DNA of 64,000 nt from contig CANQOR010000003.1 in NCBI GenBank assembly GCA_947625535.1, positions 1 through 64,000 on the forward strand, read 5' to 3'. The notes under the pieces were generated by a model. The model saw nothing but the letters and a program-made list of their open reading frames with translations, did not search any database and was not told the DNA's origin. How positions within the stretch are numbered: position 1 is the first letter of the stretch; each line of letters begins with the position of its first letter. The position numbers and the translations under genes are program-made. The stretch is from an uncultured Bacilli bacterium (GTDB taxonomy: Bacteria > Bacillota_I > Bacilli_A > RF39 > UBA660). This document shows positions 27,020-32,901 of this stretch, piece by piece.

Positions 27020-27469
27020 ATGACGATATTTGCATATTCTATTGGTCAGAATAAAGCAATTTTGTTAGAAATAGTTTCTGAAGTTTCTGGTGAAAAACAA
27101 AGTCTTTATTTAAAATTTAACACAATCACTGATGAACAAGGAGTAATACGTGATATTGATTCAATTACTATTATACCTTTTGCTTTTGAATTTATATATA
27201 ATAGCACGAAAGAAAAAAAGATTAAAAAAATAGATCCAGCATCTACTAAATACCTAGTTAAACTACTTACATTAAAAGTTAAGCAAATGTCTAAAGAACA
27301 AAAACATAAAGATAATAGCGCTATTCAAAGTGGTTGGAACGAAGATAAACTTAATTCCTTTTTGCTATTATTAAAAAATTATGATAGTGAGCAACATAAC
27401 GAAGATATAAAAGACAATCAAAATAAAACTATTGTACCAGAGTCTTTTAACAATTATAAAAAAAAATAA
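27020..27469 (+). CDS. Unknown protein, first gene of the transglutaminase-fold unit
   Basis: This soluble 149-residue protein has an alpha/beta N-terminal part and a charged C-terminus. No family is recognised. GGGGAGGA precedes the ATG. The transglutaminase-fold gene follows 18 bases downstream on the same strand, so the two are co-transcribed and may work together; the other paralog also has a small unknown neighbour. Confidence 0.65.
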   Translation: MTIFAYSIGQNKAILLEIVSEVSGEKQSLYLKFNTITDEQGVIRDIDSITIIPFAFEFIYNSTKEKKIKKIDPASTKYLVKLLTLKVKQMSKEQKHKDNSAIQSGWNEDKLNSFLLLLKNYDSEQHNEDIKDNQNKTIVPESFNNYKKK

Positions 27470-27487
27470 GTTATAGGAGCTTAAGGT

Positions 27488-29467
27488 ATGGAACAAGAAT
27501 TACAAAGAATAATTAATGAAATTAACTCACATTCAGAGTGGCCTACTAACGCTAAAATAAGATATGCATATATAGAATTAGGTAAACTTGTCTCTAAAGA
27601 TACATTGTTTTTTTATACAATACAAAAAAATTTTGAAGGTCAAGATAAAGAAACATTACAATATAGTTATGACAAATTAAACGAAATAATGAATACAGAA
27701 AATCGTTTTGATTACAAAGTAATATGCCGTAATTCAGCTGAAATGCTTCAACATATCTTTAAAAATTGTGGTATAGAAAGTGAAATCCATTATAATTTAG
27801 AAACTACTCCATATATAACTGATGAAGGAGAAGTAATTATAACCCACTATTTCATTGTCGTAACTGGTGACGAAAACAAAAAATATTTTCTAACTTTAAA
27901 TGCTGATCTACCTAATATTCAATTAGGTAGATCTACCTTACATTTTGGCAATAATATACCTTATAAAAACAGAGACGATACACAAATATATAATGGTGAA
28001 GAAATTAAAGCAACCATAATGAGTAAAGAAGAACTAAGAGAATTAGATAAATTAATAGGTTATATTGATTCTGATAAGAGTGTAAGTCATATGAAAACTT
28101 ATACAGATGTATTATTTGATATATTAAAAAGTGAATATGGTATTGGTGGAATAGATAATTATTTTAATTATCTTGCAAGTAAAACAAAGTTTTATAAAAC
28201 TATAATTGGTTCTTTAAATAGAAATATAAATATTGATACATACCTAGAAAGTCTAGAATATCAAAAAGATCAAAATGAAGAATATTTGTATTTAGATTTT
28301 GATTATTTAAAAATTGATGATACCGTCTGGTCATCATTACAAGAATATATTATAAAAAGTTCATTTGAAATGATTTATAGTCAATATATCAAAGACGAAA
28401 AAGGTTTATTTAATATATCATATCCCCAAATATGTAGTATATTAAATAACTTACGTGAAAAAATAAAAGCTCTTTTTGATGGAACAGCAAACAATAATTT
28501 ATGCAAGGATGCAAATGAATATATTCAATTAATAAATAATGAAGCTATTAAAAGTATTAAATCTATCATAATAAAAGATCTAATTGCTAATAACGGAAAA
28601 CCTAAAGATTGGAGTATTTTAAGAAGAAATCCCTTTATAATGATGAATCAAATTATATACCTGTTAAGCAGTATATATACTTTTAGAAGTTTAAAAGACT
28701 ACTTAAAATCAGAAGAAGAAATTATAACAGGATATAAGAAATATAATGAAGATTTAGCAACTAATATCTCAAATTTTGAAATATTAAATTCTATATATAT
28801 TGAAAAAAAGCCTTGTAGAGAACCAATTCATAATTTTGAAGAACATGCTAATCATTATGCTAAAATAAAGGAACTTCTTAATCAAAAAGATTTCTTAAAA
28901 AAAAGCATCGGTTCTTTTATCACTCAAATTCATAATGCTGCTAGTATTTTTGTAAATGAAGAAGAACTTACATACGAAGTACTACCAACTTCATATATAA
29001 TCAAAAAAATTAAAAATTCATTAACAAAAGTATTCGATATTGGTTATAAAGATCCTTTTAGTAACCTTGGTTTATCTGAACAAGCAGCTATAATAAAAGA
29101 AGTTCTACATATTATTTTAGCTGAGTTAGAACAAGATAAAAATTTACTTAGGTATCTATCTGAAGAAGATAAAAATAAAGTAAAAACTAAAAAGAGAAGC
29201 TTAATAGATTATAGAGTATTAATGTCCGTAGCTTTTAATAAAAAAACTAAAAAACCATATTATTTAATTAACATATCATCCATTAATACAAATAATTTTG
29301 CTAATAATGGTGAAGGTGTTTTACTTTATGATTTTGAAAATAACATTTTAATAACCAACAAGACATTAACTGAAATTTGTGATGAATATTATATTATTAA
29401 ATACAATGACTTAAATATAGAACAAATAGAAGAAGATGACTTAAGTACTGGTATGGGTAAAAAGTAG
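27488..29467 (+). CDS. Transglutaminase-fold protein, paralog B
   Basis: This 659-residue protein is a paralog of that at 16225. Shared landmarks: WPT..KIRY.Y.E.GK in the first 35 residues, Cys80 in DYKVICRNSA, His120 in THYFIVV, Asp140 in LNADLPN, then NNIPY and IIKE.L near the C-terminal domain. The Cys-His-Asp order and the GIESEI strand between Cys and His fit a transglutaminase/papain-like fold. No signal peptide is present. Paralog B is about 95 residues longer in its helical middle. TAGGAG precedes the ATG. Confidence 0.6.
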   Translation: MEQELQRIINEINSHSEWPTNAKIRYAYIELGKLVSKDTLFFYTIQKNFEGQDKETLQYSYDKLNEIMNTENRFDYKVICRNSAEMLQHIFKNCGIESEIHYNLETTPYITDEGEVIITHYFIVVTGDENKKYFLTLNADLPNIQLGRSTLHFGNNIPYKNRDDTQIYNGEEIKATIMSKEELRELDKLIGYIDSDKSVSHMKTYTDVLFDILKSEYGIGGIDNYFNYLASKTKFYKTIIGSLNRNINIDTYLESLEYQKDQNEEYLYLDFDYLKIDDTVWSSLQEYIIKSSFEMIYSQYIKDEKGLFNISYPQICSILNNLREKIKALFDGTANNNLCKDANEYIQLINNEAIKSIKSIIIKDLIANNGKPKDWSILRRNPFIMMNQIIYLLSSIYTFRSLKDYLKSEEEIITGYKKYNEDLATNISNFEILNSIYIEKKPCREPIHNFEEHANHYAKIKELLNQKDFLKKSIGSFITQIHNAASIFVNEEELTYEVLPTSYIIKKIKNSLTKVFDIGYKDPFSNLGLSEQAAIIKEVLHIILAELEQDKNLLRYLSEEDKNKVKTKKRSLIDYRVLMSVAFNKKTKKPYYLINISSINTNNFANNGEGVLLYDFENNILITNKTLTEICDEYYIIKYNDLNIEQIEEDDLSTGMGKK

Positions 29468-29485
29468 TTTTAACTACTTTTTTAT
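29460..29485 (+). terminator. Terminator after paralog B
   Basis: The stem AAAGTAGT/ACTACTTT with loop TTTA is followed by T-rich sequence. Confidence 0.75.
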
Positions 29486-29514
29486 AAAAAAAGAATTGAT
29501 ATAATATCAATTCA
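29485..29514 (-). terminator. Terminator after the kinase-like gene
   Basis: The stem GAATTGATAT/ATATCAATTC is followed by seven T on the minus strand. Confidence 0.75.
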
Positions 29515-30574
29515 TATGTTTTGAAGAAATTATTTTTTCTAATTCTTCGTTAATTTTTTTATTAATGTATTCTTCTGGATAAATACCTACAGGATCTAAT
29601 TCGTTTCTTCTTATTTTAAAATACAAAGTTTTTAAAACATCATTACTAGAATCTTCTAAAAACATAGACTTTATTCTACTATAAACAGAATTATCTATGT
29701 ACTCTTCTAATTTTTGAGTTTTATCAAATAAATCAAACTTTTTACAGTAAGCAATTGATGATTCTAATAATCTAATATAATCATAATTCCTATGAACAAA
29801 TAAATCACTTGGATTATTTAATTTTTCATTAACTGTATCTTCTATTAATTGATTTATCATTTCTATTAATTGTTCATATTCTTTTTCATCAAGACATAAA
29901 TCATACCCTTTATTTTCTAAAAAGTTTGCAAAATATTGTTCATTTCTATATATCCATCTTTTAAACTTATTAAAAAAAGGATGTCCATTTTCAAAAGCTT
30001 TCATAATATTTAAAATAGTTCTATCTTGTACCATTCTTCCATAACTATCATCTTTAAATGAATGACTAAAAACAGGAAATACCATATTAAAGAAATAATA
30101 AGTTTCTATAAGTGAATCATTATTTTCTTTTTTATTATATAAACCAACATCTATATTAGTAAAGCCATTCCCCCTATCATAAAAAATATTTCTATATCTT
30201 GGTTCAATCCCAATACCACAATACTCTAATAAATAACAATCTCTTACATATTTTTCCATATGTTCATATGGAATAGTTGCATAAAATTCTGTCATATCTT
30301 CATCTTTAACCAAAGACGCATATTCACTACCCTTAGCTAATTCTTCAAGTAACCAACACTCCATATCATCTTCTTTATAATCAATATATAATGGAATATT
30401 TATTCCTAATTCTCTACATCTTTGTATTCTATTTTTTAATTCTTCAAAATTTTCTACATATTTATTTATTAAAATTAAGCCGTCACTAACAAATGGGTAA
30501 GCTTTAGTACGATGTTCCCCACCATCTATTTTTTTATTTTGTACTTCGTTAATATAAAAATCAATGTCATTCAT
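29507..30574 (-). CDS. Possible divergent protein-kinase-fold protein
   Basis: This 355-residue protein is not assigned to a family with certainty. Its layout is kinase-like: an N-lobe hinge pattern with RCRELGINIP...WLLEELAKGSEY (about residues 48-83), then a catalytic-loop-like segment GIGIEPRYRNIFYDRGNGFTNIDVG (about 116-140, where family enzymes have a D..N....D arrangement). The helical C-terminal part follows. A canonical HxD is missing. The segment NIFYDRGNGF resembles HipA/APH-like folds. AGAGGT precedes the ATG. Confidence 0.45.
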   Translation of the reverse strand: MNDIDFYINEVQNKKIDGGEHRTKAYPFVSDGLILINKYVENFEELKNRIQRCRELGINIPLYIDYKEDDMECWLLEELAKGSEYASLVKDEDMTEFYATIPYEHMEKYVRDCYLLEYCGIGIEPRYRNIFYDRGNGFTNIDVGLYNKKENNDSLIETYYFFNMVFPVFSHSFKDDSYGRMVQDRTILNIMKAFENGHPFFNKFKRWIYRNEQYFANFLENKGYDLCLDEKEYEQLIEMINQLIEDTVNEKLNNPSDLFVHRNYDYIRLLESSIAYCKKFDLFDKTQKLEEYIDNSVYSRIKSMFLEDSSNDVLKTLYFKIRRNELDPVGIYPEEYINKKINEELEKIISSKHMN

Positions 30575-30630
30575 AAATTTACCTCTAATTTATTATACCA
30601 TATCCATATTAGATAACATTAAATACAAAC

Positions 30631-30657
30631 AAAAAAGAAAGACTTAATTTTCGTCTT
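30631..30657 (-). terminator. Weak terminator after the 149-residue gene
   Basis: An imperfect stem GGAAGAC/GTCTTTC is followed by TTTTTT on the minus strand at the end of the gene. Confidence 0.5.
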
Positions 30658-31093
30658 CCTCTATTTCTGTAAAAGGTGTATTAACACCATCTCTTAATCT
30701 AAAATCACATTCTTTTTCAATTTCTGGTTTTAAATGAAGTGCATCAACCATAATTAAATAAGCACCATTGAACCACTCTCTAATTTCTTTATCAGGATGT
30801 TTAAAACCAATTATTTCACAAGCATGACAAGCATGCATATAATAATGAATTGGATATTTATCACTATCTTCAGCAAGTTTTCTAACTTCTTCTAAAGTCA
30901 TCGTATCTCTCATAAAAGTTGTATCTTTAGCTGCTGCATTATATAATATAGCACATCTTAATTGACGAGTAAGTTTTTTTGATAAATCATACTTAGATTG
31001 ACCATCACAACCTCTTAAAGCAGATAATACTACTGTTTGTTGTTTCCAAGAAATATTATCAGCACATAACCATTCTTTTACTACTGATTTCAT
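30644..31093 (-). CDS. Unknown helical protein
   Basis: I do not recognise this 149-residue protein. It is helical and has a Cys/His cluster (YMHACHACEII, about residues 85-95) that might bind metal. It reads like proteins often found in phages and accessory regions, but no phage gene lies nearby. AGGGGG precedes the ATG. The long spacer upstream separates it from the DUF4143 ATPase. Confidence 0.55.
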   Translation of the reverse strand: MKSVVKEWLCADNISWKQQTVVLSALRGCDGQSKYDLSKKLTRQLRCAILYNAAAKDTTFMRDTMTLEEVRKLAEDSDKYPIHYYMHACHACEIIGFKHPDKEIREWFNGAYLIMVDALHLKPEIEKECDFRLRDGVNTPFTEIEEDEN

Positions 31094-31434
31094 ATAAATC
31101 CCCCTAATTTAAAAAGATTATGGAAGAAATATTAACATTAATCCACTATCTCCAAAATTTGTCTTATATTATAGGAAAGATAAGATGTTAAGTCAATTAT
31201 TTTTAATATTCTAGTAATTTTTGCTAATTTATATAACTAAATTATTAGGATAAAAATGTGTAATTAACATCTATTTTATTAAAAGTGGGTGCAAAAAGGT
31301 GTAATTTTTTCAAAAAAGTGGGTGCAAAAAGGTGTAATTTTTTCAAAAAAGTGGGTGCAAAAAGGTGTAAATTTTTCAAAAAAGTGGGTGCAAAAAGGTG
31401 TAGGTTGTAGTACTATTTATATAGAGGGGATAAT
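31094..31434. other. 341-base spacer carrying the 33-bp repeats
   Basis: The left part (31094-31280) is A+T-rich sequence in which I see no gene or RNA. The right part carries the tandem repeat array described separately and the ribosome binding site of the ATPase gene. Confidence 0.6.
31285..31402 (+). repeat. Four tandem 33-bp repeats before the DUF4143 ATPase gene
   Basis: Copies begin at 31285, 31318, 31351 and 31384, exactly 33 bases apart; the fourth is cut after 19 bases. The unit starts GTGGGTGCAAAAAGGTGTA and continues with TTTTTTC and AAAAAA. Copies 1 and 2 are identical, copy 3 has one change. The unit holds a T6-C-A6 dyad and the two related boxes GGGTGC and AGGTGT. The array ends 32 bases before the ATG of the ATPase gene. 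Repeats of this type usually bind a regulator or replication protein; the function here is unknown. Confidence 0.9.
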
Positions 31435-32754
31435 ATGAAAAGAAAAATTTATAATGACTTATTAAAATGGAAAGAAAAAAAAGAATTTAAACCCTTAATT
31501 ATTTTGGGTGTTAGGCAATGTGGTAAATCCTATATAATTAATGAGTTTTGCAAGAATGAATTTAAACATTATAAAGAAATAAATTTATTTCGTGACACAA
31601 AAGTAATAGATTTATATCAATCTAATGATGATTCAGAAAAAAAATATCAAGATTTAAAATTATTACTAAATTTTGATTTTGATATGGAAGATAGTGTTTT
31701 ATTCATAGATGAAATACAAGAGTGTGAAGAATTAATTTCTGAGTTAAAATATTTTAATGAAAAACATAGTAATGTTAGAATTATTTGTGCCGGTTCATTA
31801 TTAGGCGTAAAATTAGCAAAGTTATCAAAATCATTTCCAGTGGGTAAAGTATCAAGATTATATATGTATCCAATGGATTTTGAAGAATTTTTAATTGCTT
31901 TTAATGAAGAAATGTTATTAAACAAAATTAAAGCATGTTTTGATCGCAATCAAGCTATGGGTGTTCTTCATAGTAAAGCGCTTGATTATTATAAAAAGTA
32001 TCTGTTATCAGGTGGTATGCCAGAAAGTATAAAAGAATTAATTAGTGTAAAAAATAACTATTATAATTATAGTTTTGATATTTTAAATGATATTATTGCA
32101 GATTACCAAAATGATATGACCAATCATGTTAAAAGTACTGCTGAAACTTTAAAATTAAATAGTATATATAACTCTTTACCATCTCAATTACAAAACGCAT
32201 CAAAAAAATTTCAATACGCTATAGTAGATTCGGACGCTAAATCAAGAGAATATTCAACCCCACTTAATTGGTTAGAAGCAAGCAATATGGTACAAATAAG
32301 TAAATGTATAAAAATACCACAGAAACCCTTATTAGGTTTTGTGGATGAAGGAACATTTAAAGTGTATTATTCAGATGTTGGTATATTTAATAGAATATTA
32401 AATAACGATATAAAAACTATTCTTTTAGATGAAATGAAATTATATAGTGGTATTATTGCTGAAAATTATGTTGCCAATCAATTAAAATCAAATGGAATAG
32501 ATTTATTATATTGGAGAGGTACTAGAGATGCTGAGATTGATTTTTTAATTACTACTCCTAATGATGGAATAATACCAATTGAAGTTAAAGCTGGAGAGAA
32601 TACACAATCAAAGTGTTTAAAAATTTATGATGAATTATACCATCCAAATTATATGATCAGGATTAGTTCAAAAGATTTTGGATATAATCCAGAAACAAGG
32701 ATTAAATCAATACCATTATATGCGACATTCTTAATAAAAAAATTGGTGGATTAA
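31435..32754 (+). CDS. AAA ATPase with DUF4143 (AAA_14 + nuclease-like C-terminus)
   Basis: This 439-residue protein of the AAA_14/DUF4143 family has Walker A GVRQCGKSY (about residues 24-32), Walker B LFIDEIQEC (about 89-97), and the GSLLGV arginine-sensor region near 120. The C-terminal DUF4143 part has DAEIDFLI...PIEVKAG (about 365-390), resembling a PD-(D/E)XK nuclease core. These genes are common, mobile in distribution, and of unknown role. AGAGGGGA precedes the ATG. It lies between an odd tandem repeat and a tRNA gene, which suggests an accessory insert. Confidence 0.88.
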   Translation: MKRKIYNDLLKWKEKKEFKPLIILGVRQCGKSYIINEFCKNEFKHYKEINLFRDTKVIDLYQSNDDSEKKYQDLKLLLNFDFDMEDSVLFIDEIQECEELISELKYFNEKHSNVRIICAGSLLGVKLAKLSKSFPVGKVSRLYMYPMDFEEFLIAFNEEMLLNKIKACFDRNQAMGVLHSKALDYYKKYLLSGGMPESIKELISVKNNYYNYSFDILNDIIADYQNDMTNHVKSTAETLKLNSIYNSLPSQLQNASKKFQYAIVDSDAKSREYSTPLNWLEASNMVQISKCIKIPQKPLLGFVDEGTFKVYYSDVGIFNRILNNDIKTILLDEMKLYSGIIAENYVANQLKSNGIDLLYWRGTRDAEIDFLITTPNDGIIPIEVKAGENTQSKCLKIYDELYHPNYMIRISSKDFGYNPETRIKSIPLYATFLIKKLVD

Positions 32755-32790
32755 ACAGTATAATAAATATTATATTAAAAATTCAAAACA

Positions 32791-32816
32791 AAAACCTAGT
32801 ATTTCTACTAGGTTTT
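32791..32816. terminator. Bidirectional terminator between ATPase gene and tRNA-Trp
   Basis: A perfect 11-bp stem AAAACCTAGTA/TACTAGGTTTT with a four-base loop serves both the ATPase gene and the tRNA transcript. Confidence 0.85.
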
Positions 32817-32827
32817 AAATTACAAAA

Positions 32828-32901
32828 TGGCAGGGGTAGCAGGAGTTGAACCCACATCAGCGGTTTTGGAGACCGACGTTCTACCATTGAACTATACCCC
32901 T
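32828..32901 (-). tRNA. tRNA-Trp (anticodon CCA)
   Basis: Read on the minus strand it folds as a complete tRNA: acceptor AGGGGTA/TACCCCT, D-arm, anticodon loop CTCCAAA, T-loop GGGTTCAACTC, discriminator G, and encoded CCA at 32828-32830. Anticodon CCA reads only UGG, consistent with UGA being a stop codon here. Confidence 0.96.

Follow-up and report, generated by a model that had tools for sequence, protein, structure and literature searches.

What does a tandem array of 33-bp repeats do directly upstream of a DUF4143 ATPase gene, and which protein, if any, reads it? The question was raised by positions 1 to 64,000 of contig CANQOR010000003.1 (assembly GCA_947625535.1) from an uncultured Bacilli bacterium, a 64-kb stretch referred to here as the window, in which an earlier note had pointed out four such repeats, proposed cooperative binding by a protein, perhaps the ATPase itself, and placed the array and the gene in an accessory insert ending at a tRNA. 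Comparison with homologues suggested that the array is probably a set of phased operators, which the winged helix of the downstream ATPase would bind at its own promoter.

The 33-bp array and its gene

Tandem Repeats Finder placed a direct array at 31281–31402, with a period of 33 bp, 3.7 copies, a 98% match and a score of 237, while no second array scoring above 92 was detected in the 64-kb window; the nearly identical repeats noted before the DUF4143 gene were thus confirmed. The array also occurred only once in its genome. Each unit comprised a nearly invariant 20-bp core, GTGGGTGCAAAAAGGTGTAA, and a 13-bp spacer, TTTTTTCAAAAAA, with the cores, GTGGGTGCAAAAAGGTGTA(A/G), starting at 31285, 31318, 31351, and 31384. 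From array scan and sequence, units 1 to 3 were assigned to 31285–31317, 31318–31350, and 31351–31383 on the + strand, the third having one change in its spacer, and unit 4 (31384–31402, + strand) consisted of the core only. The boxes GGGTGC and AGGTGT were present in the units as claimed, as was the spacer. However, the T6-C-A6 dyad that had been taken for a functional part is the spacer, and it was absent from the arrays of three other genomes (G005, G021, and G038). The range first given, 31285–31434, did contain the repeats, but its stretch up to the ATG is promoter and ribosome binding site rather than array, with a 32-bp gap between the array end at 31402 and the gene start at 31435. A candidate ribosome binding site of the ATPase gene, GAGGGG, was read from the sequence at 31424–31429 (+ strand).

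Since a 33-bp unit amounts to 11 codons and two frames (1 and 2) stay open across the four window units, the array might be suspected of encoding a repetitive peptide or else a small RNA, the earlier note having read one frame as VGAKRCNFFKK. That frame was, however, interrupted by stops in four of the eight orthologous arrays translated, and the other periods found, 32, 34, and 23 bp, are not multiples of 3 and shift the frame, so that a coding repeat was ruled out. Rfam gave no match for the array either, the tRNA being its sole match, and a peptide or RNA product is very improbable. A CRISPR array was also ruled out, as its 13-bp spacers hardly differ from one another, whereas those of a CRISPR array would be unique.

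The gene behind the array (31435–32754, + strand; Pfam, model, and PADLOC) encodes 439 amino acids (aa), in which only AAA_14 (PF13173; 4.5e-25, 88.6 bits, cut-off 27) and DUF4143 (PF13635; 1.1e-28, 100.4 bits, cut-off 28.1) passed the Pfam cut-offs. No NCBIfam match was obtained, and a sequence search for PDB relatives returned weak AAA matches only. The structural model, with a mean predicted local distance difference test score (pLDDT) of 94.5 and a predicted template modelling score of 0.93, comprised an AAA+ domain (about residues 1–150), then a winged helix, and then a PD-(D/E)XK-fold C-terminus (about 338–438). The winged helix-turn-helix was modelled with helices at 235–253, 261–264, and 270–282 and wing strands at 286–292 and 303–312. 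The AAA+ plus winged helix part was closest to the archaeal ATPases PAB2304 (2qen; Z 17.0, 265 residues aligned, root-mean-square deviation (rmsd) 3.8) and Sso1545 (2fna; Z 15.4, 263 aligned, rmsd 3.8), with CED-4/NLR and Orc1/Cdc6 structures next (2qby_B; Z 12.0, 266 aligned, rmsd 9.8). The likeness to the two archaeal proteins and to STAND/NB-ARC ATPases lies in the AAA+/STAND core plus winged helix, whereas neither an upstream array nor binding to a promoter is mentioned in these structure matches.

When the C-terminal domain was modelled by itself (pLDDT 89.7), its closest structures were McrC (6hz4_M; Z 9.4, rmsd 3.0, 113 residues) and Can2 (8q41_B; Z 9.0, rmsd 3.2, 113 residues), both members of the PD-(D/E)XK family; the fold assignment rests on VIA-align, and a Foldseek search with this domain found nothing at E ≤ 0.001. 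The nuclease-fold residues were E343, D369, and E383-x-K385, of which E383 and K385 were invariant and D369 was present in at least 90% of the rows in the 64-row alignment of A2. With the modelled PD-(D/E)XK fold and the D...ExK residues, the C-terminus is a predicted nuclease.

The PDC-S01 profile of PADLOC (PDLC04786) matched residues 1–436 with an E-value of 2.1e-133, and by this full-length profile match the window gene is classed as the single-gene phage defence candidate PDC-S01. In the part of its description drawn on here, PDC-S01 is likewise an ATPase fused to a PD-(D/E)XK domain, is reported to come fourth in frequency among prokaryotic defence systems, and belongs to a set of candidates most of which await validation (PMC12988326); in the data drawn on from rumen genomes it was the most frequent individual locus (PMC13356809). 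The one paper found on DUF4143 contains a Thermus expression table that lists a DUF4143 gene as up 6.6-fold with plasmid in the Argonaute-encoding strain, which is suggestive only (PMC4406477). Unlike the locus studied here, the same part of the PDC-S01 description mentions no upstream repeats or regulation (PMC12988326), and no published description of upstream DUF4143/PDC-S01 arrays was found in the literature searched, which was without bioRxiv preprints and held few subscription papers.

A fixed spacing upstream of homologues

Allowing up to one mismatch, the 20-bp core was matched 15 times in 5 of 98 related genomes, every time just 5′ of a homologue 76–100% identical to the window protein (broken in one case, G047), and the reversed core gave no match in the 98 genomes. 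The proposed link of the repeat to DUF4143 genes was thus supported. Homologues of only 30–60% identity carried arrays of quite different sequence and equal pitch, and the period was therefore assayed systematically. In the 220 bp 5′ of each homologue, the best direct repeat over all lags of 18–70 was compared with 200 dinucleotide shuffles, significance being set at p ≤ 0.005, the floor of the test, at which about one of 210 is expected by chance. Scores were obtained for 210 of 211 homologues, one having too short an upstream stretch: 179 with an intact Walker B motif (DE), 27 degenerate ones (DN), and 4 outside the alignment. Partial or edge matches (L010, L133, L138, L142, and L144) were left out, and 80 further matches were added by hand choice, for spread and to cover the degenerate group.

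A significant upstream array was present in 80 of the 179 catalytically complete homologues of the window subfamily (subfamily A), and their lags were 32 (23 loci), 33 (51), 34 (1), and 64–66 (5), with no other value. By clusters, each represented by its member of best p, 25 of 34 had at least one significant member. Of the four genes outside the alignment, one had a significant array (lag 32), whereas none of the 27 degenerate paralogues, most of which lack the nuclease lysine too, had any. A first pass had returned 59 of 130 as significant, with the same lags, and at least 30 of 40 matching positions were found in 43/130 upstream stretches vs. 3/127 downstream controls. Consistently, 12 of 22 non-redundant loci in a held-out set of viral contigs were significant, with lags of 33 (8), 32 (3), and 20 (1). 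These results indicated that the family rule is strong on period and not on presence, as about half of the window subfamily is without a significant array.

Among named genomes, arrays at p ≤ 0.02 were found in Bacillota (15/40), Bacteroidota (5/23), Actinomycetota (1/3), Mycoplasmatota (2/2), Spirochaetota (2/4), and one archaeon (1/1), and in none of four Fibrobacterota. Plasmid copies in Segatella copri, Acinetobacter, Vibrio, Collinsella, Glaesserella, and Criblamydia had significant arrays; the plasmid loci of Fusobacterium, Parabacteroides, and Ruminococcus albus fell short of the significance floor. A plasmid copy (L316) is also carried by Bacteroides thetaiotaomicron.

When 195 genomes of the phylum were searched for the Pfam domain DUF4143, two further subfamilies, B and C, came to light, and both formed clades in the tree (support 100 for B and 96 for C). 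Homologues of all three subfamilies also matched PDC-S01 models over their full length. In this wider set, of whose 80 loci 74 were usable for arrays, 21 of 33 subfamily A genes had arrays, with lags of 32 (7), 33 (9), 34 (1), 64 (1), and 66 (3), and all 24 genes of subfamily B ('K-x-C/G-GKT') had one, with a period of 23 in 22 genes and 46 in 2. The genome of the window itself contains a second subfamily A member (L223) with its own 33-bp array, TTTCTAAAAATGTGATTTTT, with TTTCTAAAAATGTGAT, and a subfamily B member (L322) with four 23-bp units, CTCACGGAATGAAAATACAAAAT; together with the window array, these make three private arrays in one genome. Elsewhere (G413:C11, about 46.4–53.0 kb), three DUF4143 genes stand in a row about 2 kb apart (L340, L341, and L342), each with its own array, of periods 34, 23, and 33 bp, respectively.

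Core, promoter register and the helix-turn-helix

A motif search on 37 units from proteins less than 65% identical yielded a single bipartite core, approximately T[CT][CG][CT]TnSAAAAAn[GT]TG, that is, about TCnYTnSAAAAAnGTG, with a score of 459 vs. 237–249 in six shuffled-unit controls. Chains of three cores 31–34 bp apart occurred on the gene strand in 83 of the 179 complete homologues but on the opposite strand in just 2, as compared with 0/27 degenerate paralogues and 0/90 shuffled sequences. The number of sites in the 83 chain loci was three in 70, four in 8, and five in 5. A rare exception is a 33-bp array in a phage scaffold (MT836768, L285), whose AAAAGTGTGG core is on the other strand from the gene. 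When AAAAAnGTG-N23-25-AAAAAnGTG was searched in the 98 genomes, 21 places were found (13 with the reversed pattern); all nine places with at least three phased cores preceded a DUF4143 gene, vs. 2 of the 12 with a single pair, a result to be read as a test of specificity and not of discovery, because the pattern was partly defined on these genomes. A wide occurrence of the repeat away from DUF4143 genes, which would have spoken against the link, was not seen in the 98 genomes.

In the 83 loci, the median distance from the end of the last core to the start codon was 36 bp, and −10-like hexamers started 1 bp (22 loci) or 9–10 bp (19 loci) past that core; as evidence for a promoter, this fixed offset is better than the mere presence of a hexamer. 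In the window, the AAAAAGGTG of unit 4 (31392–31400) stops 10 bp 5′ of a candidate −10 box, TACTAT (31411–31416, + strand), which was taken from this register peak across loci (offset 10 from the last core) and is weak alone.

Covariation of the repeat with the protein was then assayed for 91 loci with a usable site, by comparing repeat-site similarity with identity in 25-aa segments sliding along the protein, whole-protein identity being controlled. The best covarying segment was residues 257–281 (0.378), into which the modelled helices 261–264 and 270–282 of the helix-turn-helix fall. Its value was 0.303 after 80% dereplication (59 loci), reached by 0 of 200 permutations, and 0.261 for pairs less than 45% identical, reached by 1 of 200. 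Whole repeat units compared with protein identity gave a Mantel r of 0.376 (0/999) and a rank correlation near zero for pairs less than 55% identical, a weakness that arose because A-rich cores align anywhere and that was resolved by anchoring on the core. The DNA-binding domain of the ATPase thus covaries with the site, as is expected of an autoregulatory operator in a comparison of sequences. Of the earlier proposal, the phased spacing held, and the ATPase itself is probably the binder, to judge from its covarying helix-turn-helix.

Binding by a host regulator instead of the ATPase would agree with the general expectation that operators have separate regulators, and nothing direct was found in its favor. 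Paralogues in one genome, however, have different arrays, orthologues in different genera have the same array, the repeat sequence tracks the helix-turn-helix of the ATPase, and the cassette contains no other gene, so that this explanation is hardly likely. Separate regulators are described for the WYL-domain family (PMC9122601) and RptR (PMC12255303), which, in the portions of those reports used here, resemble the present case in placing defence-linked genes under the control of a DNA-binding protein; in contrast, here the candidate effector carries the DNA-binding domain and is preceded by long phased arrays.

In the operator reading, which is the favored one, a single site would be contained in each 33-bp unit, the ATPase would use its winged helix to recognise the variable 5′ half together with the A5-n-GTG core, and several ATPase copies would line up next to each other on the DNA. 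Promoter elements adjoin the last site or fall within it, so that the protein, once bound, would control, and probably repress, its own gene. ATP may drive the cooperative binding, and an invader may release the bound protein.

Several results weigh against the operator reading. Direct repeats were not significant in 99 of the 179 complete homologues; 42 of these 99 still had a best lag of 32–34, vs. 6.1% in shuffles, and 25 had inverted repeats at the promoter, vs. 3/27 degenerate paralogues and 5/40 direct-repeat loci (40 of the 80 being examined), with arm centres about 31–35 bp apart in several (e.g., L184–L189 and L095), while others showed nothing clear. In subfamily C (classical 'RQVGKS/T'), significant arrays were found in only 2 of 17 genes, at lags of 37 and 60. 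A −10 hexamer matching at least 5 of 6 positions was present in 62/83 loci vs. 47/83 shuffled AT-rich sequences, so that its presence is weak evidence, and the consensus promoter scan missed the window promoter, including TACTAT at 31411. A smaller second covariation peak lay at residues 1–25, and the related sequences compared are non-independent, their relatedness being only partly corrected by the permutations. Three subfamily C genes without arrays (L286, L296, and L297) have apparent short-gap inverted repeats at the promoter, as in L286.

The main rival is that the array serves mainly as an assembly platform for the effector, as with iteron/Rep and ORC/Cdc6, where an ordered AAA+ oligomer would position or restrain the nuclease and promoter control would be secondary. 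Within subfamilies the sequence drifts but the pitch stays fixed (32–33 and 23 bp), which is what a pitch set by the spacing of protomers would produce; the AAA+ and winged helix module resembles origin-bound Orc1/Cdc6 besides the two archaeal ATPases; and four or five sites in 13 of the 83 chain loci exceed the need of a simple repressor. On the other hand, the array stands on the promoter side of the gene, nearly always in the orientation of the gene, which fits gene control. A platform is compatible with the operator reading, the two not being exclusive, and as the main role of the array it is a serious but tentative possibility. Iteron arrays of plasmid replication initiators are phased direct repeats 5′ of a winged-helix protein gene that overlap its promoter, with inverted sites in some, and to this extent the arrays described here are alike. 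They differ in standing before chromosomal single genes, in their periods of 32–33 or 23 bp, and in an AAA+ protein with a nuclease-fold domain and no Rep domain; an iteron-type replicon was accordingly rejected for the window, where no Rep domain passed the Pfam cut-offs.

More speculatively, and with doubt prevailing, the arrays may be self-tethering sensor platforms, at which the ATPase-nuclease would be assembled on its private array at the pitch of its subfamily (32–33 or 23 bp) with its gene silenced and its nuclease kept inactive, until displacement, titration or degradation of this complex by an invader led to synthesis and to immediate release of the nuclease. If so, one of the most frequent candidate defences would be guarded by a DNA-encoded 'self' address within the same 1.5-kb cassette. 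A cis array that recurs across the family, has a fixed, subfamily-specific pitch, is private to each gene and covaries with its helix-turn-helix is, to our knowledge, the first concrete handle on the binding target of PDC-S01 proteins. The arrays offer ready ligands for structures, predict orthogonal protein-array pairs, suggest which paralogues are functional, the degenerate ones being without arrays, and make members recognisable from DNA alone.

Two of the degenerate paralogues (Walker B DN, nuclease lysine lost; L026, 1486–2772, and L028, 1501–2775) have no upstream array; further DN-type paralogues are L020, L024–L029, and L231–L250. The paralogue in L026 and L028 lies directly 3′ of what is presumably a spo0A-like gene, itself preceded by a presumed tpiA-like gene, and in L026 is followed by a presumed gpmI-like gene. 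Such a paralogue may have been domesticated for another function.

The cassette and its surroundings

Near-identical copies at unrelated sites had the array and the open reading frame (ORF) in common and little else. Homology of the window cassette extended over 31268–32827 vs. G005 and from 31271 or 31304 to 32771 vs. G021, and a paralogue in G000 and the copies in G185 and G211 had about 1.45 kb in common, with almost no similarity in the flanks. Array and ORF (31281–32771, + strand) are thus the unit common to unrelated sites in other genomes, and by these sequence comparisons they form an accessory, self-contained cassette that moves between genomes. The distribution was patchy, with a match to the window protein in only 2 of the 15 genus members.

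The array might also be the recognition end of a mobile element whose ATPase-nuclease moves its own cassette, as both the homology ending with array and ORF (window/G005/G021, and G000 paralogue/G185/G211) and the patchy distribution would allow. However, the repeats occur on one side only, no array being found downstream of the gene; no common terminal sequence or target duplication was visible among the copies compared; the array positions follow promoters; and in fold the protein resembles AAA/STAND-type ATPases and PD-(D/E)XK nucleases rather than a transposase or integrase. Such a role is improbable, and a transposon or integrative element with the array as its ends was rejected for the window, which has no downstream array and no duplicate of the tRNA end.

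Downstream of the gene, a terminator-like hairpin (32791–32816, − strand) precedes a tRNA-Trp (32828–32901, − strand, opposite to the gene). The accessory nature proposed for the insert stands, as G004 has the site without the cassette, with the same flank gene adjoining a tRNA-Trp remnant; the tRNA was rejected as attachment site, since copies elsewhere are not at this tRNA and no second copy of the tRNA end was found in the window.

Upstream of the array, four neighboring proteins (149, 659, 355, and 149 aa) are encoded at 27020–31093, with no Pfam match for any. In G004 (L154, about 1379–1468, G004:C17, and G004:C17:18419-18526), a truncated tRNA-Trp end and an intact tRNA-Trp match are about 4.7 kb apart, the truncated end resembling the trace of an element integrating at that tRNA. 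In G021, a further DUF4143 copy has been reduced to remnants with several stops (G021:C27:7167-7411), about 1 kb past the intact cassette.
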